Below, one piece after another: positions 4,460-40,319 of a stretch of 64,000 nucleotides of DNA. The position numbers and the translations under genes are program-made. The notes beneath the pieces were generated by a model. It searched no databases, had not been told where the DNA came from, and saw only the letters and a program-made list of their open reading frames with translations. The stretch's first letter is position 1. Each line of letters starts with the position of its first letter. Origin of the DNA: Acidobacteriota bacterium (lineage in GTDB: Bacteria > Acidobacteriota > Aminicenantia > Aminicenantales > Saccharicenantaceae); contig JAKLEN010000005.1 in NCBI GenBank assembly GCA_022711665.1, positions 64,261-128,260 on the forward strand. The letters run 5' to 3'.

Positions 4460-5464
4460 ATGGAAAATTTCAGGCTTGAGAAATTTCCAGGAGCCAAGCC
4501 GGCTTATCAACAGATCATATCTTTCATCGAGAAAGAGATCCAATCCGGCCGGCTCAAGCCGGGAGAAAAGCTCCCGGCCGAGCGCGACCTGGCCCAGGAG
4601 CTCCACACGGCCCGCGGCACGGTCAAGAAGGCCTACGAGGAGCTTGTCCGGCGCCGGCTCATCGAAGCCGCGCCCGGCCGCGGCAGCTTTGTCGCCCCCG
4701 AGCGCCACGCCCCGGCCGAGAGCCGCAAGGACAAGGCCCTGCGCCTCATCGACGAGGTCATCGACGAGATGGCCCGGCTGAAGTTCAACGCCAACGAGAT
4801 GCGCATCTTCTTCGATCTCCGCCTCCTCGGCCGCGAGGAGGAGCTCCAGAACCTGAACGTGGTCGCTGTCGACTGCAACCCCGAAGCCCTGGCCATCTTC
4901 GAGCGCCAGCTCCTCATCATCCCCCACATCAACCTGGCCAAGATGCTCGTCGACAACGTCCTGGCGGACCCGGCCGGCGCGGACCGGCTGCGCAGCTTCG
5001 ACCTCATCCTGACCACCACGGCCCATTTCCAGGAGGTCCTGGACCGCTTCCCCGACCTCCGGCCCAAGCTCGTCCAGGCCGCCGTGGCCCCGACCCGGGC
5101 CTCCATCATCGCCCTGGCCCGCCTGGCCCCCTCGCAGAAGATCGGGGTCGTCTGCGAGTCCAGGCGCTTCCTCGACATCATCCTGGACCACCTCCGGGCC
5201 TTCGACATCCCGGCCTCGTCCGTGGCCCCGCTCTTCTGGGCCGAGCTCGACCGGCTGGACGGCTTCCTGGCCGGCCTCGACGCCGTCATCATCCCGGCTG
5301 GCTATTCGCTGCAGAAGGGCCGGGAGCATCTGGCCGCCATCCAGGAATTCACCGAGCGCGGCGGCTCCATCATCGCCTTCGATTACCAGATCGAGCGCGG
5401 CTCGCTCCTCAACGTCGAGGAGCGGCTGCGGACCCTGCTCGACGAAGCCCGGCGGGGACTCTGA
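4460..5464 (+). CDS. GntR-family transcriptional regulator with unusual effector domain
   Basis: 334 aa. Residues ~10-80 are a GntR winged helix (YQQIISFIEKEIQSGRLKPG, then LPAERDLAQEL and ARGTVKKAYEEL). The remaining ~250 residues are not a recognisable FCD or UTRA domain. They look like an alpha/beta ligand domain (VVAVDCNPEALAIF, FDLILTTTAHF, KIGVVCESRRFLDII). The start has a good ribosome site (AAGGAG) and lies behind a strong promoter with two operators. The stop overlaps the start of the glutamate mutase small subunit gene, so the regulator is the first gene of the operon it very likely controls. The effector is unknown; glutamate or a pathway intermediate is a guess from context. Confidence 0.85.
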   Translation: MENFRLEKFPGAKPAYQQIISFIEKEIQSGRLKPGEKLPAERDLAQELHTARGTVKKAYEELVRRRLIEAAPGRGSFVAPERHAPAESRKDKALRLIDEVIDEMARLKFNANEMRIFFDLRLLGREEELQNLNVVAVDCNPEALAIFERQLLIIPHINLAKMLVDNVLADPAGADRLRSFDLILTTTAHFQEVLDRFPDLRPKLVQAAVAPTRASIIALARLAPSQKIGVVCESRRFLDIILDHLRAFDIPASSVAPLFWAELDRLDGFLAGLDAVIIPAGYSLQKGREHLAAIQEFTERGGSIIAFDYQIERGSLLNVEERLRTLLDEARRGL

Positions 5465-23320: not shown

Positions 23321-23516
23321 CTTCTTGTCTCTACGATGAGTGGAGCAATATGCGTGCCAGGCATATGGCGCTTCAGGAGCTATCTCCCTGTTTCTGCAAG
23401 TCGTAGAAAAGAAACGCGATGGCCAGGTCACGGGTTTAAGCCGGCTGCGGTCCATTCAGGGAGCTCTGTAAAATAAATTGACCCGAGCCGGCAATGCGGA
23501 GTTTCACTCGCCACAC

Positions 23517-24053
23517 TCATTTCTTCGCTTTTCCGCCTAGCCAGGAAAATGACCGGACTAATGATAGGAAGTCCTTCTCGTACTTTGGGCTCTCTTCTTT
23601 CGGCCCATTTAGGACGAGTATTAAATAGAAGGGGGAATCCTCGTCAGGATCGAGAAAACAAACATAGTCAGTCGTCTTATCATCATATGAATATTTCTTG
23701 GACAAGATTTTATAGGCCGGTTCGCTTATTGTAAATTCTTGTAGTTCGAGCTTCTGATGCTGCTTGTTGTAGTCCGCGACGTCAGAGTCCATCTTCTGCT
23801 GCAGAGTCTCTCCTCTTTTGGTGTTTATCGTAATGTGCATAACAACCGACGATTTTTCGAAGCTCTTTTTCCCCAAGCAGAAATAGATATTCATGCGATA
23901 TCGATATGCATCTTCCGTATGGCCCGTCCAGCCCTTCGGTTCCCTTACATTGAACATCCAACCATTCCCAAAGATAAGCAACTCGTCCATTTGTGAAGAA
24001 CCTGCCGACACGGCAAGAAAGAAGATTATGATGGACCAAAGGCCTTTTTTCAT
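23517..24053 (-). CDS. Secreted protein of unknown function, AT-richer than surroundings
   Basis: 178 aa. A signal peptide (MKKGLWSIIIFFLAVSAGSS) precedes a soluble domain with FNVREPKGWTG, VVMHITINTKRGE and a C-terminal SLVRSFSWLG. It reads like the small lipoprotein-type PsbP/DUF1795 fold, but I cannot assign it. Base composition is clearly lower in GC than the neighbours. It lies downstream of the 3' end of tRNA-Sec on the same strand, so read-through from the tRNA promoter could reach it. Probably acquired. Confidence 0.65.
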   Translation of the reverse strand: MKKGLWSIIIFFLAVSAGSSQMDELLIFGNGWMFNVREPKGWTGHTEDAYRYRMNIYFCLGKKSFEKSSVVMHITINTKRGETLQQKMDSDVADYNKQHQKLELQEFTISEPAYKILSKKYSYDDKTTDYVCFLDPDEDSPFYLILVLNGPKEESPKYEKDFLSLVRSFSWLGGKAKK

Positions 24054-24366
24054 TGATCCTCCTCCTATGACGCAGGCTGTGCAGTTTCGCTATTGGGATG
24101 ACTGGGCCCGGCCAGATTATCGATGAATATTACGAATCCTGAAGCCCACGCCGAGGGCAAGACCGAAAGGACTATCAGGCCAGTTCCGATCCCCATCTTC
24201 ATCAGCACCTCTGCCGCGGTGTGACAACTATGAGGACATGATATGTATGGAGGACGGATTAATCAACTTATAGAATGAGAAAAAGCGCGCCTTGACCGAA
24301 GAGCGCCTTATCTATCAGGCCTCCTAGGCATGCCGGACGAGTCAACGGATAATAAAAATAAGCGAG
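24054..24366. other. Intergenic stretch without a gene
   Basis: 313 bp between the small secreted-protein gene and the tRNA-Sec 3' end. It is fairly AT-rich, with GGAGGAGGATC just before the gene start. I see no ORF, strong hairpin or repeat here, and it does not share the arm sequence found left of the two tRNA halves. Confidence 0.5.
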
Positions 24367-24461
24367 TGGCGGGAAGGTGTGGGAGTCGAACCCACCCGGG
24401 ACGTTTATAGCCCCATACCGGATTTGAAGTCCGGAAGGATCACCGGATCCTTCACCCTCCC
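24367..24461 (-). tRNA. selC: tRNA-Sec (anticodon TCA)
   Basis: 95 nt on the minus strand, the size of E. coli selC. A long acceptor stem pairs GGGAGGGTG (24461-24453) with CACCTTCCC (24379-24371, one G-T wobble). There is an extended D arm (GGATCCGGTGATCC), an anticodon loop CTTCAAA with TCA at 24427-24425, a long variable arm, a T loop GTTCGACTC, discriminator G and an encoded CCA (24369-24367). It decodes UGA as selenocysteine together with SelA, SelB and SelD at 38-43 kb. The part 5' of the anticodon loop is repeated twice further right. Confidence 0.96.
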
Positions 24462-24474
24462 GGCGTGCCGAACG

Positions 24475-24503
24475 ATGGTAGCCCCTCAGCGACGAGGTGT
24501 CAA
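24475..24503 (-). promoter_or_regulatory. tRNA-Sec promoter
   Basis: On the minus strand TTGACA (24503-24498), 17-bp spacer and TACCAT (24480-24475) lie about 14 bp before the tRNA 5' end. The same two hexamers with the same spacing recur at 27005-26977 in front of the first tRNA half. Confidence 0.8.
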
Positions 24504-24533
24504 GGTACCGAGGGCAGATCTATGGCGCTATGA

Positions 24534-25817
24534 TCATGGATTGGGGAGAATATGGCGGACGACGGCCTTGTCGGTCGGTTTCGAGACGGCCGAGACCGGC
24601 GGCTTCTGGATCGGGACGGTCATCTCGGCGCTCCCGGCCTTGCTCGTGATCTTGAGGCCGACCGTGCCCTTTTGTTTCAGCCATTCGGCGGGGATAGTGA
24701 TCTTGACCTTGTCCGGGCCGATGACGGCCGAATCGACGGGGGTCCATTGCTTGGGCCCTCCCTCGGAGGCGGCCGGGGCCGTCGAACCGGCCGGGATCGT
24801 GACCTTCCTGCCGACCAGGGTCGAGCCCGTCCCGCCCGCGCCGGCGACCGGCTTGACCGTGGCCGGCCCGGCTGGCTGGTTTCCCTGGCTCCCCATCTCG
24901 TAGATGTGTCCCACTCGGACCTCCGCTTTGTCGATCTGGAGGCCTTCGTAAGCCAGAACGATCGTGGCGGCGGGAGCGCCGATGAACAGTCCCTTCGGCG
25001 TGACGTCCTTGATCTTCGGCGGGCCGTAGACCCAAAGGGTGGCCGGGACGCAGGGACTGCCCTGCGGGTCCCTGATCGTGACCTTGTGCTGTCCGGGGAC
25101 GCTCAGAAAGCCGGCCGGAACGCCGGCCGTGATGAGGCAGGCGGGCGCCGCCTGGTCGTTCGTCACCGGCCAATCCGTCCCGTCGACGACGACGACCGAG
25201 CCGGGGGAATAATATCCGCAGACGCGGAGAGGGGAAGGGTTGGACTCGTTGACCACATAATAGGCGGGGTAGAGTGACTTGGCATAGCAGACGGGGCCGT
25301 CCAGGTAGGTTCTCACGGGAACGGGGAAGACGGCCGACCGGGTCTTTTCCTGGATCAGCATGTCCCCGGTCTGTCCGTCCCATTTCCCTTTGACCATGAT
25401 GAACTCGAGCTGCCCTTCTGTCGAGCACCAGCGCGCTTTAGGCAGCCAGACCCGAATGGACTCGTTCCAGTCGTAAGCGCAGTGCCCGTTCTCGATGGGG
25501 AAGTTCGGGTAGCCGTCGCCGCGGAGGTTGTTGTAGAGCCCCTGCCACGGCTCGCCGGTCCCCGAGCGCCGCACGTAGAGCAGGATCTGCCGCGCGTCCC
25601 AGCGGTTCTCGGCCCCGATGGCCAGGTCCTTGCCTGTCAGGAAGATCTCAATTTCGCCGCCCTCCTTGGTCACCTTGATCTGATTCGGGTGGGCGGCCTG
25701 GAAGACGGGTTTGGCGAAGTTGTCCTCGCCTGCGGCCGCTCCGGGCCGGGCCTCGGCCAGCGAGACGACCGCGAAAGAGAAAGCCAGCAGGGCCGCGAGC
25801 ATCCGGCGCACTTTCAT
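24534..25817 (-). CDS. Secreted protein with Ig/IPT-like C-terminal region, unknown function
   Basis: 427 aa from ATG 25817, behind GAGGAGG; two residues longer from a GTG. A signal peptide (MLAALLAFSFAVVSLAEA) is followed by a Trp- and Cys-containing N-terminal half (YAYDWNES-type segments, VWLPKARWCSTEG). Then come beta-rich, IPT/TIG-like segments (PPKIKDVTPKGLFIGAPAAT) and a Gly/Ala/Pro-rich linker before the end. It is probably an exported binding or surface protein. It ends 30 bp short of the tRNA-Sec -35 and lies inside putative cassette A, with its own promoter at 25857-25886. Confidence 0.65.
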   Translation of the reverse strand: MKVRRMLAALLAFSFAVVSLAEARPGAAAGEDNFAKPVFQAAHPNQIKVTKEGGEIEIFLTGKDLAIGAENRWDARQILLYVRRSGTGEPWQGLYNNLRGDGYPNFPIENGHCAYDWNESIRVWLPKARWCSTEGQLEFIMVKGKWDGQTGDMLIQEKTRSAVFPVPVRTYLDGPVCYAKSLYPAYYVVNESNPSPLRVCGYYSPGSVVVVDGTDWPVTNDQAAPACLITAGVPAGFLSVPGQHKVTIRDPQGSPCVPATLWVYGPPKIKDVTPKGLFIGAPAATIVLAYEGLQIDKAEVRVGHIYEMGSQGNQPAGPATVKPVAGAGGTGSTLVGRKVTIPAGSTAPAASEGGPKQWTPVDSAVIGPDKVKITIPAEWLKQKGTVGLKITSKAGSAEMTVPIQKPPVSAVSKPTDKAVVRHILPNP

Positions 25818-25856
25818 GTTCACCCTCCTCTGCGGCGGTGGGGAGACTTGCTTCGC

Positions 25857-25886
25857 ATCTTATCAGCTCCGTGTTCCGGCCGTCAA
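25857..25886 (-). promoter_or_regulatory. Promoter of the secreted protein gene, part of a repeated block
   Basis: Minus strand TTGACG (25886-25881), 18-bp spacer, TAAGAT (25862-25857), 40 bp before ATG 25817. The block 25855-25889 matches 32307-32341 upstream of the cupin gene at 30 of 35 positions, including the spacer. Confidence 0.6.
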
Positions 25887-26012
25887 TCGGCCGGCGGCTT
25901 GCGCGCCCGGCCGGCACGGTGGCAAAGGGCAGGGTAGTGAGGCAAGGACCGTAGCAGGGCGGAGGCAGACTGGCCCGCCGTGTCACACCGGCCAGAACTG
26001 TCCGTGGCTGCC

Positions 26013-26639
26013 TTATTGGTTTCCCAGATCGTCAAGATCGCCAACCAAGTCGATCCAGATCATAGAGATCCCCTTCGTCTCATAGATGACATTCATGATG
26101 AATTGTTTCTCTCCCGTATCTAACGTGAAGAAGGGTTCCTCGATGTCGTAGGGGATCATCGCCCAATAATAGGACAGTTCCCGGGCTTTTGCTTTCCTTA
26201 TGATGGCACTCTTCAATTCTGGATGCGATTTCCAAAGGACCTCCCAGAACGCTTCTCTGGCGGGTTCTGTTCTCAGAACGCCGCCCGGGACGACGAGGGG
26301 TTTGGACGTCTGGACCATCAGCATAAAGCGTCCGGTGTCTCCGAAACGTTTGTCTGCCGCCGTATCGATCTCCTTCCATAGCATCGGGCCAACGGTGATC
26401 AGGTTTCCGCTAAACCAGGGCGGCACCTTCTTCGAATCTTGCAGCATCTGCATGAGCCAGGACTGTACCTGTTCGTTGACAGCCTGCGATGCACGCTTGT
26501 ACGTAACGCCAGCGGGAACATCCTGCCGATTCCATCGAACGTCTGACGCTGATGTGAGGACAGAGAGGGAATAGGACGATTGCGTTGCCAAGAGTGAGGA
26601 TATGCCAAACAATGCCAACAATCCTCGGAGTTTTGTCAT
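26013..26639 (-). CDS. Secreted protein of unknown function
   Basis: 208 aa from ATG 26639 (MTKLRGLLALFGISS), preferred because GGAGGGG stands just upstream; an in-frame ATG at 26657 lies before that site. A signal peptide leads into a domain with VGPMLWKEIDTAADKRF and SYYWAMIPYDIEEPFF. I do not recognise the family. It is the first gene of putative cassette A counted from its right end, about 290 bp downstream of the first displaced tRNA half, whose promoter could transcribe it. Codon use is less GC-rich than in the core operons. Confidence 0.65.
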   Translation of the reverse strand: MTKLRGLLALFGISSLLATQSSYSLSVLTSASDVRWNRQDVPAGVTYKRASQAVNEQVQSWLMQMLQDSKKVPPWFSGNLITVGPMLWKEIDTAADKRFGDTGRFMLMVQTSKPLVVPGGVLRTEPAREAFWEVLWKSHPELKSAIIRKAKARELSYYWAMIPYDIEEPFFTLDTGEKQFIMNVIYETKGISMIWIDLVGDLDDLGNQ

Positions 26640-26767
26640 TGAAGCCCTCCCCTCCAATGGGTGCCTTGTTGGCAGATGGCATCAGGCTAGCATAGACCGG
26701 CAAGGAAAGAAAGCGTGTACAAGGTATCTCTCAGGCTGTGCGGACCACTCCGCCGCGTAACACGATC

Positions 26768-26873
26768 CCAATTAATTGTGCAAGGATTGTGCAAACCCTT
26801 GCCTAAAACAACTCAGTCCAGATAGATCAGGCTAAAACCATCAAGATCGGTAAGTGCAAGAAAACCAAACTAG
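26768..26873. repeat. Right-end arm of cassette A (matches 28565-28675)
   Basis: Shared with 28565-28675: two nearby TGTGCA motifs (ATTGTGCAAGGATTGTGCAA here), CTCAGTC, and ATCAAGATCGGTAAGTGCAAGAAAA. The match stops short of the tRNA half, with a poorly matching stretch of about 50 bp between. The paired TGTGCA motifs look like recombinase arm sites. The intact tRNA-Sec has no such sequence on its left flank. Confidence 0.6.
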
Positions 26874-26925
26874 AAACAGTCCAACAGGGAAGAACAGGCA
26901 AGTGGCGATTTCGCTCTGGGGCGCT

Positions 26926-26964
26926 TTTGAAGTCCGGAAGGATCACAGGATCCTTCACCCTCCC
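26926..26964 (-). pseudogene. Displaced 5' half of tRNA-Sec (copy 2)
   Basis: On the minus strand it runs from the acceptor 5' strand through the D arm to the last base of the anticodon loop. With the adjoining base, 39 of 40 positions match 24423-24462 of the intact gene (CAGG for CCGG in the D loop). The 3' half is missing; the sequence beyond the loop is unrelated to the tRNA. It keeps a full promoter. Confidence 0.85.
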
Positions 26965-26976
26965 GAGGGCGGAGTG

Positions 26977-27005
26977 ATGGTAATCCTCCCGGAAAAACGT
27001 GTCAA
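26977..27005 (-). promoter_or_regulatory. Promoter in front of tRNA-Sec half copy 2
   Basis: Minus strand TTGACA (27005-27000), 17-bp spacer, TACCAT (26982-26977): hexamers and spacing identical to the intact tRNA-Sec promoter, with a different spacer. It would transcribe the half tRNA and then the leader of the 26639 gene. Confidence 0.7.
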
Positions 27006-27082
27006 GGAATGAACCACCGGGCCACGGCGACGGCAAAACCCGGTGGATTCATGTCCTCGGCGAGGCGGCCTTACTGACGGCT

Positions 27083-28465
27083 CTACTTCCGGATCTTTTC
27101 CAGTGCCCTCTTGGCGGACTCCAGGCCGGGCTCTAAAGCAAGCGCCCGGCGATAGCTGTCGATCGCAAGTTGAATGTCGCCGTTGGCTAAATAGGCCTCC
27201 CCCAGGCTATCGTAGACATTGGCTGATCCCGGATAGGCCTGCGCATTGCACTTGAAAACGGCGATGGCCATGGCGCGGGATTCTTGGCGGAGCAGCTCAT
27301 AACCCTTCTGGTTTATCGAGGACTGATCCATGACTTTTCTCTCGATCGCCCGCTTCAAGATCGAGAGGACCAGCGTCTCAGCTTCCTCGGTCTTCTTTTG
27401 CAGGAATAGCATTTCTGCCTGCTTTAGACTGCTCGAGCATTCGTTATAGGCTGCGAGCAGGTTCTCCATCATTTTAGCGCGGCGATCCTCCGCGGCCGGC
27501 TCAGCGACAGCGACGGCGGCCTCGAGCGCCTTGTCCGCTCCGGTTTCGATGTCCGGTTTCACGCCAACGCCTTCCCAATTTGTGCCCGTCGTCGGATTGA
27601 TGGCCCGTCCGTAGGGTATGGAGATCCTCAAGTCCTTATAGACGACCCAACTCGAGGCCGGGTTGGCCCCGCCGGCGGATTTCTCGCCGATCACGACCGC
27701 CCGCTTGAGGGCCTGGAGGTCGTAGGCAAATTCCTCAGCCCCGGAAAACGTCTGGCCGCTGACGAGGACATACAGAGGTAAGTCGACGAGTTTCTTTCCC
27801 GGCACGCTCTCTTTCGTCCAAAACTCGTCGGTGCGGTCCCGGTCCTTCCAATAGATGCTGTTGATGTGCGTGGGCTTCTCAAAAAAATAGCTTAGAACAG
27901 AGGCCATGTAGGCGGGATCGCCACCGCGATTCTCCCGGAGGTCGATGATCAGCGCGTCCGTATTCTCCAGGAACTTCAAGGCTGCCGATACGACCTCCAT
28001 GGCCTCTCGGGAGTACATCACCGACCGGATGCGCAGGTAACCGACATTGCCGCCGAGGATCTCGACCTTGTCCAAGCCGAAATTGCGCCTCTTGCTTTCA
28101 AATTGGCCCGCGAACCTGTCCAGGTCCCGCTCCTCCTTGCTCCGCTCGTCGGGGTTGGCGCCTTTGAACATCGCCAGGTGCTTATCGTGACAGACCGACC
28201 TCAGTTCCCGGGTCATAGCCTCCAGGAACTCGTCGGAATCGGTCATTCGATCGAACGTTCCCGCTTCGAGCTTGGCCCGAATGTGCCGCTCCATCCTGGT
28301 CGCGACCTCCGGCAGGACATAAAAGCGGTTGAGGAGCTGACAGACCTTGTCGACCGCCTGGGCGATTTCAGCCCGCGTCAGAGTCGTTGCCCTGTCCTGG
28401 GCCGGCCCGGGCAGAATGAGAAACAAAACGAATACCGCACAGTTGAAGGCCACTTTCTTTTTCAT
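27083..28465 (-). CDS. S41-family (tail-specific/IRBP-like) peptidase with C-terminal TPR
   Basis: 460 aa with an N-terminal signal peptide (FNCAVFVLFLILPGPA). The N-terminal helical region ends in CHDKHLAMF, the equivalent of the GD-x-HT segment. The catalytic core has ALIIDLRENRGGDPAYM, the serine in LVSGQTFSGAEEFAYDL and the lysine in VIGEKSAGGAN. After ~330 residues a helical region with TPR features follows (NVYDSLGEAYLANGDIQLAIDSYRRALAL). There is no PDZ domain, so it belongs to the retinol-binding-protein-like type. It is probably periplasmic. It is the only gene of putative cassette B. Confidence 0.85.
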   Translation of the reverse strand: MKKKVAFNCAVFVLFLILPGPAQDRATTLTRAEIAQAVDKVCQLLNRFYVLPEVATRMERHIRAKLEAGTFDRMTDSDEFLEAMTRELRSVCHDKHLAMFKGANPDERSKEERDLDRFAGQFESKRRNFGLDKVEILGGNVGYLRIRSVMYSREAMEVVSAALKFLENTDALIIDLRENRGGDPAYMASVLSYFFEKPTHINSIYWKDRDRTDEFWTKESVPGKKLVDLPLYVLVSGQTFSGAEEFAYDLQALKRAVVIGEKSAGGANPASSWVVYKDLRISIPYGRAINPTTGTNWEGVGVKPDIETGADKALEAAVAVAEPAAEDRRAKMMENLLAAYNECSSSLKQAEMLFLQKKTEEAETLVLSILKRAIERKVMDQSSINQKGYELLRQESRAMAIAVFKCNAQAYPGSANVYDSLGEAYLANGDIQLAIDSYRRALALEPGLESAKRALEKIRK

Positions 28466-28564
28466 AACAGACTCCTATGCCCGATATAATAGATACTGGC
28501 TAGGCCGAGGTTATGTTTACGGGAAAACAAGAACGTCGGAATATTGCCGGTGGACAAGAGCCAG

Positions 28565-28675
28565 CACCAATTGAGAACATGTGCAGAGATTGTGCAAACT
28601 TCTGCTCAACATAGCTCAGTCTAGCCTAAACGTGATCAAATCGTCAAGATCGATAAACGCAAGAAAAATAAGTTA
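28565..28675. repeat. Right-end arm of cassette B (matches 26768-26873)
   Basis: Second copy of the arm sequence, with ATGTGCAGAGATTGTGCAA, CTCAGTC and ATCGTCAAGATCGATAAACG. It sits at the same place relative to the tRNA half as the copy in cassette A. Confidence 0.6.
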
Positions 28676-28728
28676 GTTGCGGTTTTACGGGGGAGAAACC
28701 GCGGACGCCGATTTCCCTCAATTTCGCT

Positions 28729-28767
28729 TTTGAAGTCCGGAAGGATCACCGGATCCTTCACCCTCCC
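28729..28767 (-). pseudogene. Displaced 5' half of tRNA-Sec (copy 3)
   Basis: The block 28729-28768 is identical to 24423-24462 of the intact tRNA-Sec at all 40 positions, again ending exactly at the anticodon loop. Perfect conservation points to recent displacement or continuing selection. The outermost copy, it is probably the original chromosomal 5' half. Confidence 0.87.
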
Positions 28768-28784
28768 GGGGGCGCAATAACGGC

Positions 28785-28813
28785 ATTCTAGCTTCTCCCG
28801 GGTGAGCCCGCAA
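28785..28813 (-). promoter_or_regulatory. Promoter in front of tRNA-Sec half copy 3
   Basis: Minus strand TTGCGG (28813-28808), 17-bp spacer, TAGAAT (28790-28785), at the same distance from the half tRNA as the other two. The hexamers differ from copies 1 and 2. Confidence 0.6.
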
Positions 28814-38393: not shown

Positions 38394-40319
38394 TCAGGGC
38401 CGCTTGGCCAGGACATGCCGGTCCTCGACGCGCCGGGTATATCCGGTCTTGTCGAAGTATTCGAGTATGGCCTGGGCGTACTTGCGGGAGAGCTCGAGAC
38501 GGTCGCGGAGGCCGGCGATGGTGACGCTGCCGTGGCGCTCGACCAGGCCGGCCACCGCGGTCCGGGCGGCCTCGAGCGTCTCCCGGTGATAGATCACCTT
38601 GGGGGCCAGCCGGACGAGCTCGCCGGAGCGCAGGAGGGCGTTCAGCGCGGGGTTGAAGACGGAGGGGTTCAGGCCGAGACGGAGCCGGACCTGATCCTCG
38701 AGCGGGGCGGCGAACCGGGCCGCCTTGAAGGCCCCTTCGATCCCGGCCCGGAGCGCCGTCTCGGCTGGATCGGTCCTGGGCTCGCGTCCGGCCAGGCCGA
38801 TCTCCGCGCCATGACGGACCAGGACGCCGGCCGCAACCGAGGCGTCGAGGAGGAGCTTGAGCGTCGCCGCGTCGCCCGTTTCGAGGAAGGCCGCCCGCAG
38901 GTCGGAATAGGGCATGGCCGGACGGCAGGGGTTCTTCTCGAAATAGGCCCGGACGGCGGCCAGGAGCCCCTCGGCCAGGCGGTCGTGCCCGGACTTGTGG
39001 AGGAAGCGGCCGGGCGTTTCTCCGGGCAGGGCGACCAGGCGTCCTTCGGCGACAAGGGCGCTGACTGCCTCGGCCACTTCGGATCCGGCCAGGCCGAGCT
39101 TGAGGGCGATGTCGGCGGCGGATTGGGGCCGGCCGGCGGACTGGGCGAACATCTGGTCCACGGCCTGGCGGGTCGTGCCACCGAGCTTCTCCAGGCCCTC
39201 GAGGACCCGGCCGCTGAAGCGCTTGTGCTTCTCGGGCGCGGCGTCGAGGACCCGGCCGCCGCCGATGGTCACGATGGGGGAGAACGACCGGATGACGAAG
39301 CGGTCGCCGGGCAGGGCGACCGTCGGGCGCTCGAGGACGAATTGGACCGGGGCCGAAGCGCCCGGGGCGATCGTCCGGCCGCCGATGATCGCCAGGCGGG
39401 CCATGACCTCGTCGGTTCCGACGTGGAGCCGGACCCGGTCGCGGTGCTTGATCTCGCGGGGGGCGCAGGGCAGGACGTCCAGGCGGGCGTCGAGGCGCGA
39501 CGTCGGCGAGAGGGAGCCGACGGCGGCGGCCACCTGGCCGCGGCGCAGGTCATCCTTGGCCGCGTCCTGGAGATTGAGGGCCGTGCGGCGGCCCAGGCCG
39601 GAGCGGTCGGCCTTCGCGCCGTGGACCTGGACGCCGCGGACGCGCGTTTCCAGCCCCTCCGGGAAGATGGCGATGCGGTCGCCGGCGCCGACCGTGCCGC
39701 CGAGGATCGTGCCGGCCACGACCGTGCCGAAGCCGTGGACGGTGAAGACGCGGTCGATGGGCATGCGGAAGATCCCGTTGTCGGGGCGGACCGGGACGCG
39801 GCGGCCGATCTCCTGGAGGGCGGCCTTGAGGGCGGCGATGCCGCTCCCGGCGAGCGCCGAGACCGGCAGGACGGGCGCGCCGTCCAGGAACGAGCCGGCG
39901 ACGAAGGCCCGGACGGCGGCCGTTACCTCGGCCAGCCGGGCCTCATCGACGAGATCGCACTTCGTCAGGGCGACCAGGCCGTGCCTGACGTCGAGGAGCC
40001 GGAGGATGTCGAAGTGCTCGCGGGTCTGAACGGCGATGCCCTCGTCGGCGGCCACGACGAGCAGGGCGGCGTCGATGTGGCTGGCCCCGGCGGCCATGGT
40101 CTTGACGAACTTCTCGTGGCCGGGGACGTCGATGAAGACGATCTGCTTGGGGTAGTCCGGGTCGTCGAGGAAGACGAAGCCGAGCTCGATAGTCATGCCC
40201 CGGGCCTTCTCCTCGGGCAGGCTGTCGGGGTCGGTCCCGGTCAGGGCCTTGACCAGGGCGCTCTTGCCGTGGTCGATGTGGCCGGCGGTGCCGATGATGA
40301 CATGGTCGGGGCCGGGCAT
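38394..40319 (-). CDS. selB: Selenocysteine-specific elongation factor SelB
   Basis: 641 aa from ATG 40319, two bases behind the selD stop. The GTPase domain has [26 protein letters not shown] and LTKCDL. EF-Tu-like domains 2 and 3 follow, then C-terminal winged helices ([26 protein letters not shown]) that bind the SECIS hairpin. It delivers Sec-tRNA to UGA codons. The length is close to E. coli SelB. It is the last gene of a selA-selD-selB operon. Confidence 0.96.

Follow-up and report, generated by a model that had tools for sequence, protein, structure and literature searches.

How does a gene for the selenocysteine tRNA (tRNA-Sec) come to lie beside two further copies of its own 5′ half? 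The question is raised by a 64,000-nucleotide stretch from an Acidobacteriota bacterium of the order Aminicenantales (assembly GCA_022711665.1, contig JAKLEN010000005.1), which we call the window (G000:C9:64261-128260, where G000 is the window's genome). A first-pass annotation, made from the letters alone, had described an intact tRNA-Sec gene and two 5′-half copies that end at the anticodon loop, and this description was borne out (Table 1). Copies 2 and 3 both lie on the 5′ side of the intact gene, whose own 5′ half is copy 1, and share its orientation. The start-to-start spacings are 2503 bp from copy 1 to copy 2 (unit A) and 1803 bp from copy 2 to copy 3 (unit B), in agreement with the annotated unit sizes of 2.5 and 1.8 kb. 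Because the next best match to the 5′ half within the window reaches only 24/40, chance is excluded as the source of copies 2 and 3. The block common to the copies begins at the anticodon loop, with TTTGAAG on the plus strand; copies 2 and 3 lack the 3′ strand of the stem, and the displaced fragments end at a known crossover site. Within the window we found no fourth 5′-half copy, no remnant of one beside selB and no copy of the 3′ half (next best match 33/63). A loose Rfam search for tRNA-Sec returned mostly other tRNAs and was of no use for half genes.

The array is very probably what remains of two tRNA-targeting elements that integrated serially at the anticodon loop of tRNA-Sec, swapping the 5′ half of the gene. 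Judged by sequence comparison, serial integration with replacement of the 5′ half, as first proposed in the annotation, is strongly supported: the displaced copies are absent in close relatives, and the same anatomy recurs in G049, a genome of another family, and in integrase-bearing islands at tRNA-Lys and tRNA-Arg genes. Neither outcome that the annotation had named as refuting was seen: the three copies are not general among relatives, and the likeness of the flanks is one-sided. Crossover would take place in the anticodon loop, with TTTGAAG (plus strand) as a 7-bp overlap. The attachment site of the element (attP) would carry the tRNA 5′ half and a promoter of its own, and not the 3′ half. 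Integration would join the element's 5′ half to the chromosomal 3′ half, giving a rebuilt tRNA gene that is probably driven from the element's promoter, and would move the old 5′ half outward, so that it came to lie at the far end of the element and behind its arm. By geometry, unit B would have integrated first and unit A second. Both units would since have lost the integrase gene together with its arm, so that cargo, a single arm and the displaced halves remain. Units A and B look like worn-down islands, and replacement of promoter and 5′ half has probably happened repeatedly to this tRNA-Sec gene.

Most of the genomes compared are metagenome-assembled and broken at repeats, and half-gene counts in relatives are lower bounds. 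A recognisable tRNA-Sec is present in six genomes of the genus, G000 included. The three copies are not a common feature of the relatives: G002, the closest genome in the left flank (91–95% DNA identity), and G009 each have one tRNA-Sec and no 5′-half copy. The ancestral neighbour of tRNA-Sec is selB, which lies directly at the tRNA 5′ end in many genomes of the order (G013, G036, G053, G054, G061, G062 and G069). Within the genus, the distance from tRNA-Sec to selB is 1.8 kb in G011, 8.9 kb in G009, 9.8 kb in G002 and 13.9 kb in G000. Subtracting the 4.3-kb array from the G000 distance gives the G002 distance to within about 0.2 kb. Since selB adjoins tRNA-Sec in many Aminicenantes, the locus gives insertions a direction and allows promoter replacement to be tested.

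The layout of the window recurs in G049. Its contig C139 carries a tRNA-Sec 5′ half (4530-4573) 4.6 kb from selB, with an arm, GTGTGCATAATTTGTGAATATTC, at about the same distance from the core as the arms in the window; a second 5′ half stands at the start of the contig, where it is truncated. On contig C38, an intact tRNA-Sec is accompanied by a 374-aa tyrosine integrase whose gene ends 10 bp from the tRNA 5′ end and contains GTGTGAATAATTTGTGAATATTC, a 22/23 match to the C139 arm. The 5′-side arm of the G049 element lies inside the integrase gene, and integrase loss would take both together. In both C139 copies, a −10-like TATTTTA (plus strand) lies 8 nt from the half gene, as it does in the selB-linked genes of G054 and G058; the sequence beyond it differs among the C139 copies, G054 and G058. 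Such a pattern, a kept TATTTTA with differing sequence beyond, would be expected if the promoter travelled with the half gene. In all, G049 contains three intact tRNA-Sec genes (contigs C38, C203 and C26; L046, L045 and L047), one of which has a 3′-half copy 2.35 kb away, with a sigma-factor-like gene between.

Searching the phylum with the G049 integrase and scoring each relative by its side of the tRNA placed the integrase on the 5′ side in six cases (G049 and G166 at tRNA-Sec, G210 at tRNA-Lys, G286, G212 and G203 at tRNA-Arg) and on the 3′ side in at least eight. The 5′-side integrases do not form a single clade; supported branches force at least two changes. Two of the six are complete 10-kb islands that run from a 5′-side integrase to a displaced 5′ half at the opposite end. 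The displaced half of G210 is a perfect copy of tRNA-Lys nucleotides 1–40, 10 kb away and beyond the integrase; that of G203 copies tRNA-Arg nucleotides 1–41 (98%), again 10 kb away. In both islands, a similar arm motif occurs next to the displaced half as well as near the end that bears the integrase. The tRNA-Sec with a 5′-side integrase in G166, a distant member of the phylum (L190, L204), has one internal TAG in the integrase gene and no displaced half within the 16 kb read.

The arms in the window lie on the loop side of copies 2 and 3 and are lacking beside the intact tRNA-Sec, as had been annotated. They align without gaps (26777-26927 against 28580-28730) at 99 of 151 positions, compared with about 60/151 at the runner-up place in the window. 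The arm starts about 139–149 bp from the core in G000, G049, G210 and G203 alike. A periodicity of 10–11 bp is strong in the arms of G049 and G210 (0/2000 shuffles) and moderate in that of copy 3 (34/2000). Among 94 genomes of the order, the arm pattern with at most three mismatches occurs only twice in G000 and once in G003; the copy 2 arm, searched against 142 genomes of the class, returned only G000 and a 24-bp match. The arm in G003 (G003:C7:118011-118103; L117:10012-10104) matches that of copy 3 at 88% identity over 93 bp. A 961-aa Ser/Thr kinase-like gene stops immediately before it, neither a tRNA nor a half of one lies close by, and the arm may be one end of an element that used a different target.

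Table 1. Features of the tRNA-Sec array in the window (positions counted from its first letter)
Feature	Position	Strand	Remarks
Intact tRNA-Sec, anticodon TCA	24367..24461	-	ARAGORN; Rfam tRNA-Sec match, 81 bits
Parts of intact tRNA-Sec	3′ half 24367-24422; anticodon loop and 5′ half (copy 1) 24423-24461	-	
Copy 1 promoter, TTGACA-17-TACCAT	24475..24503	-	13 nt from tRNA; listed by consensus scan
Unit A cargo, 429-aa protein	24534..25823	-	no Pfam match; no relative in 94 genomes of the order
Unit A cargo, 214-aa protein	26013..26657	-	no Pfam match
Arm left of copy 2, TGTGCAAGGATTGTGCAAAC...	26777..26925	+	ungapped match to copy 3 arm, 99/151
Copy 2, tRNA-Sec 5′ half	26926..26964	-	39/40 identical
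Copy 2 promoter, TTGACA-17-TACCAT	26977..27005	-	12 nt from half gene; listed by consensus scan
Unit B cargo, S41 peptidase with C-terminal TPR, 460 aa	27083..28465	-	
Arm left of copy 3, TGTGCAGAGATTGTGCAAAC...	28580..28728	+	88% match over 93 bp in G003
Copy 3, tRNA-Sec 5′ half	28729..28767	-	40/40 identical
Copy 3 upstream region, promoter weak and shifted	28768..28813	-	
selB, ancestral neighbour of tRNA-Sec	38409..40319	-	now 13.9 kb off

The cargo of both units is accessory, as judged from sequence: it is not found at the tRNA-Sec locus of relatives, and relatives of the S41 peptidase all show at most 44% identity, with none at E≤1e-40 in G002. That the units carry only secreted-protein genes, as annotated, holds insofar as hydrophobic N-termini are seen by eye, which makes secretion putative; one of the proteins can be named more closely, as the S41 peptidase with TPR.

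A 17-bp-spaced promoter at a like distance had been ascribed to all three copies. This applies to copies 1 and 2, and their hexamers are common to both and different in copy 3, as annotated. At copy 3, the best candidate is the weaker TTGCGG-17-TAGAAT, 17 nt from the half gene and missed by the consensus scan; the position of the copy 2 TACCAT reads TGCCGT there, and the copy 3 promoter has probably decayed. The upstream region of copy 2 resembles those of G009 and G002, most of all G009. It is doubtful that displaced tRNA promoters drive the neighbouring cargo. The copy 2 promoter is directed across the arm into both unit A genes, all of them on the tRNA strand. If such promoters did drive cargo, a further tRNA promoter would come to stand behind the previous unit with every integration, and the array would somewhat resemble an integron, but with a moving promoter. 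The arrangement would not be general, because the cargo genes of G049 point the opposite way.

Several observations weigh against serial integration as we have described it. There is no convincing integrase remnant in unit A or unit B, and copies 1 and 2 are not flanked by a 5′-side arm such as the G049 element has. The 10–11-bp periodicity of the copy 2 arm is not significant (245/2000 shuffles). To the right of copy 3 there is neither colinearity with relatives nor a base-perfect empty site, so the agreement between G000 and G002 is one of size. Finally, the upstream region of the outermost copy, copy 3, is unlike the genus promoter, yet its half gene is unchanged; simple displacement and drift would not explain a decayed promoter beside an intact half. 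Because the genus-typical promoter sits at copy 2 and not at the outermost copy 3, the order of insertion is not fully settled.

The lack of an integrase, already noted in the annotation, extends to the whole window, which has no PF00589 match. It could mean that the units were small elements that never had an integrase of their own and were moved in trans by that of another element, in the manner of cis-mobilizable elements (CIMEs) or cassettes. We consider this improbable, even though it suits two tiny, integrase-less units in which arm and core are kept, and even though an integrase-less stretch of G049, C139, has the arm that belongs to an integrase of a different contig. C38 and C139 may be one element, and the missing 5′-side arm in the window also speaks against this reading. 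G000 also offers no integrase with matching arms: the 11 kb around each of its four PF00589 matches contain neither the tRNA-Sec core nor an arm match of useful length, so the search suggested by the annotation for a tyrosine recombinase of the same genome with a matching att site came back empty. Searching viral contigs with the tRNA-Sec 5′ half and the G049 integrase gave no match. Loss of an integrase does happen here: G002 has an ordinary 3′-side island at tRNA-Sec, with a 3′-half copy 3.1 kb away and arm-like repeats at both ends, which holds an integrase stump. We infer loss of the integrase from units A and B rather than original absence. The further suggestion of a working cassette array is not supported, as no 5′-side arm lies by copies 1 and 2 and no cognate integrase or further arm was found in G000. 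Gene cassettes of the integron type (IntI and attC) were rejected without an attC model, there being no integrase gene at the locus and the core being half a tRNA gene.

Tandem segmental duplication of a block of arm and half gene, without site-specific recombination, is very unlikely. Copies 2 and 3 do match over 209 bp in one register, as such a duplication would leave them. Against this, the half genes are 97–100% identical (97.5% between copies 2 and 3) and the arms only 66%, which makes a recent duplication of the whole block unlikely and would be expected if different elements had used one target. The genes within the units are unrelated, copy 1 shares only the half gene and promoter, and the flanks are not shared on both sides, the arms occurring on one side only. 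Duplication would also leave unexplained both the break at the anticodon loop and the like layout of integrase-bearing islands. The least credible alternative is a set of ordinary 3′-half islands with several full tRNA-Sec genes, two of them later stripped of their 3′ halves by insertion or deletion: tRNA-Sec is a hotspot for 3′-half islands in the order (G002, G004, G053, G036 and G049) and G049 has its three intact genes, but the window has no 3′-half copy, and it is unlikely that two independent losses would stop at one and the same base and that homologous arms would then share a register.

To place the array that serial integration would have left, we compared it to known systems. CIMEs are integrase-less units between att sites, stacked at one target by tandem accretion with integrative and conjugative elements (ICEs), integrative and mobilizable elements (IMEs) or other CIMEs; such accretion has been described for the 3′ ends of genes, with related integrases in the same genome. 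The window array is alike in its stacked integrase-less units with arm and core kept. It differs in that one arm is missing, no partner integrase was found in G000 and mobilization is putative. Enterobacterial selC islands also target tRNA-Sec; they rebuild the 3′ half, lie on the 3′ side, bear an integrase and are far larger, whereas the window array swaps the 5′ half and is small and integrase-less.

The closest match is a class of islands that leave a 5′ fragment. Of the 3919 islands in Islander, 159 have a 5′ fragment and 3760 a 3′ fragment; the database also counts 125 tandems of at least two islands, and it admits an island only with an integrase and from a length of 2 kb upwards (PMC4383910). 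The array shares with the 5′-fragment islands a tRNA insertion of the tyrosine-recombinase type, crossover in the anticodon loop, a rebuilt gene and a 5′ fragment upstream. It differs in that its units are integrase-less, unit B measures 1.8 kb and two units are stacked on one gene. Without an integrase and with a unit of that length, it would be rejected by Islander, and integrase-filtered island finders miss arrays of this kind. The displaced upstream fragment, the end at the anticodon loop and the absence in relatives are all found, but neither unit has an integrase; we therefore file the array as derived from, or working like, 5′-fragment islands and not as a full member. The class is known but rare, and the stacked integrase-less pair is an unusual variant, a form not found at tRNA-Sec in the literature searched. 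Archaeal pTN3-like integrases also use the tRNA 5′ half, and among bacteria it is uncommon for a rebuilt tRNA to be expressed from the side of the element (PMC8371274). Expression from that side, proposed for the window, is common to both. In the archaeal case, integration splits the integrase gene, from whose promoter the tRNA is then expressed; the modules of the window each have a promoter of tRNA type, and no integrase remains. In most tRNA islands, the host promoter stays in place and the 3′ half is exchanged. An element that exchanges the 5′ half has to bring a working promoter with it, so that tRNA expression depends on mobile DNA.

On the 3′ side of the tRNA-Sec gene, window positions 23456-24366 have 47% G+C, compared with about 67–71% in the surrounding chromosome. 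This segment is likely the remainder of an older 3′-side island whose 3′-half copy has been lost. The 3′-side island of G002 (L029:13805-17039) contains small genes without a Pfam match; its integrase stump is C-terminal, and a 178-aa gene is shared with window positions 23517-24053. In G054 (C181; L048:3012-3104), a tRNA-Sec 3′ half followed by different sequence is still folded as tRNA-Sec by ARAGORN, and this half gene passes for a full one in gene finders.

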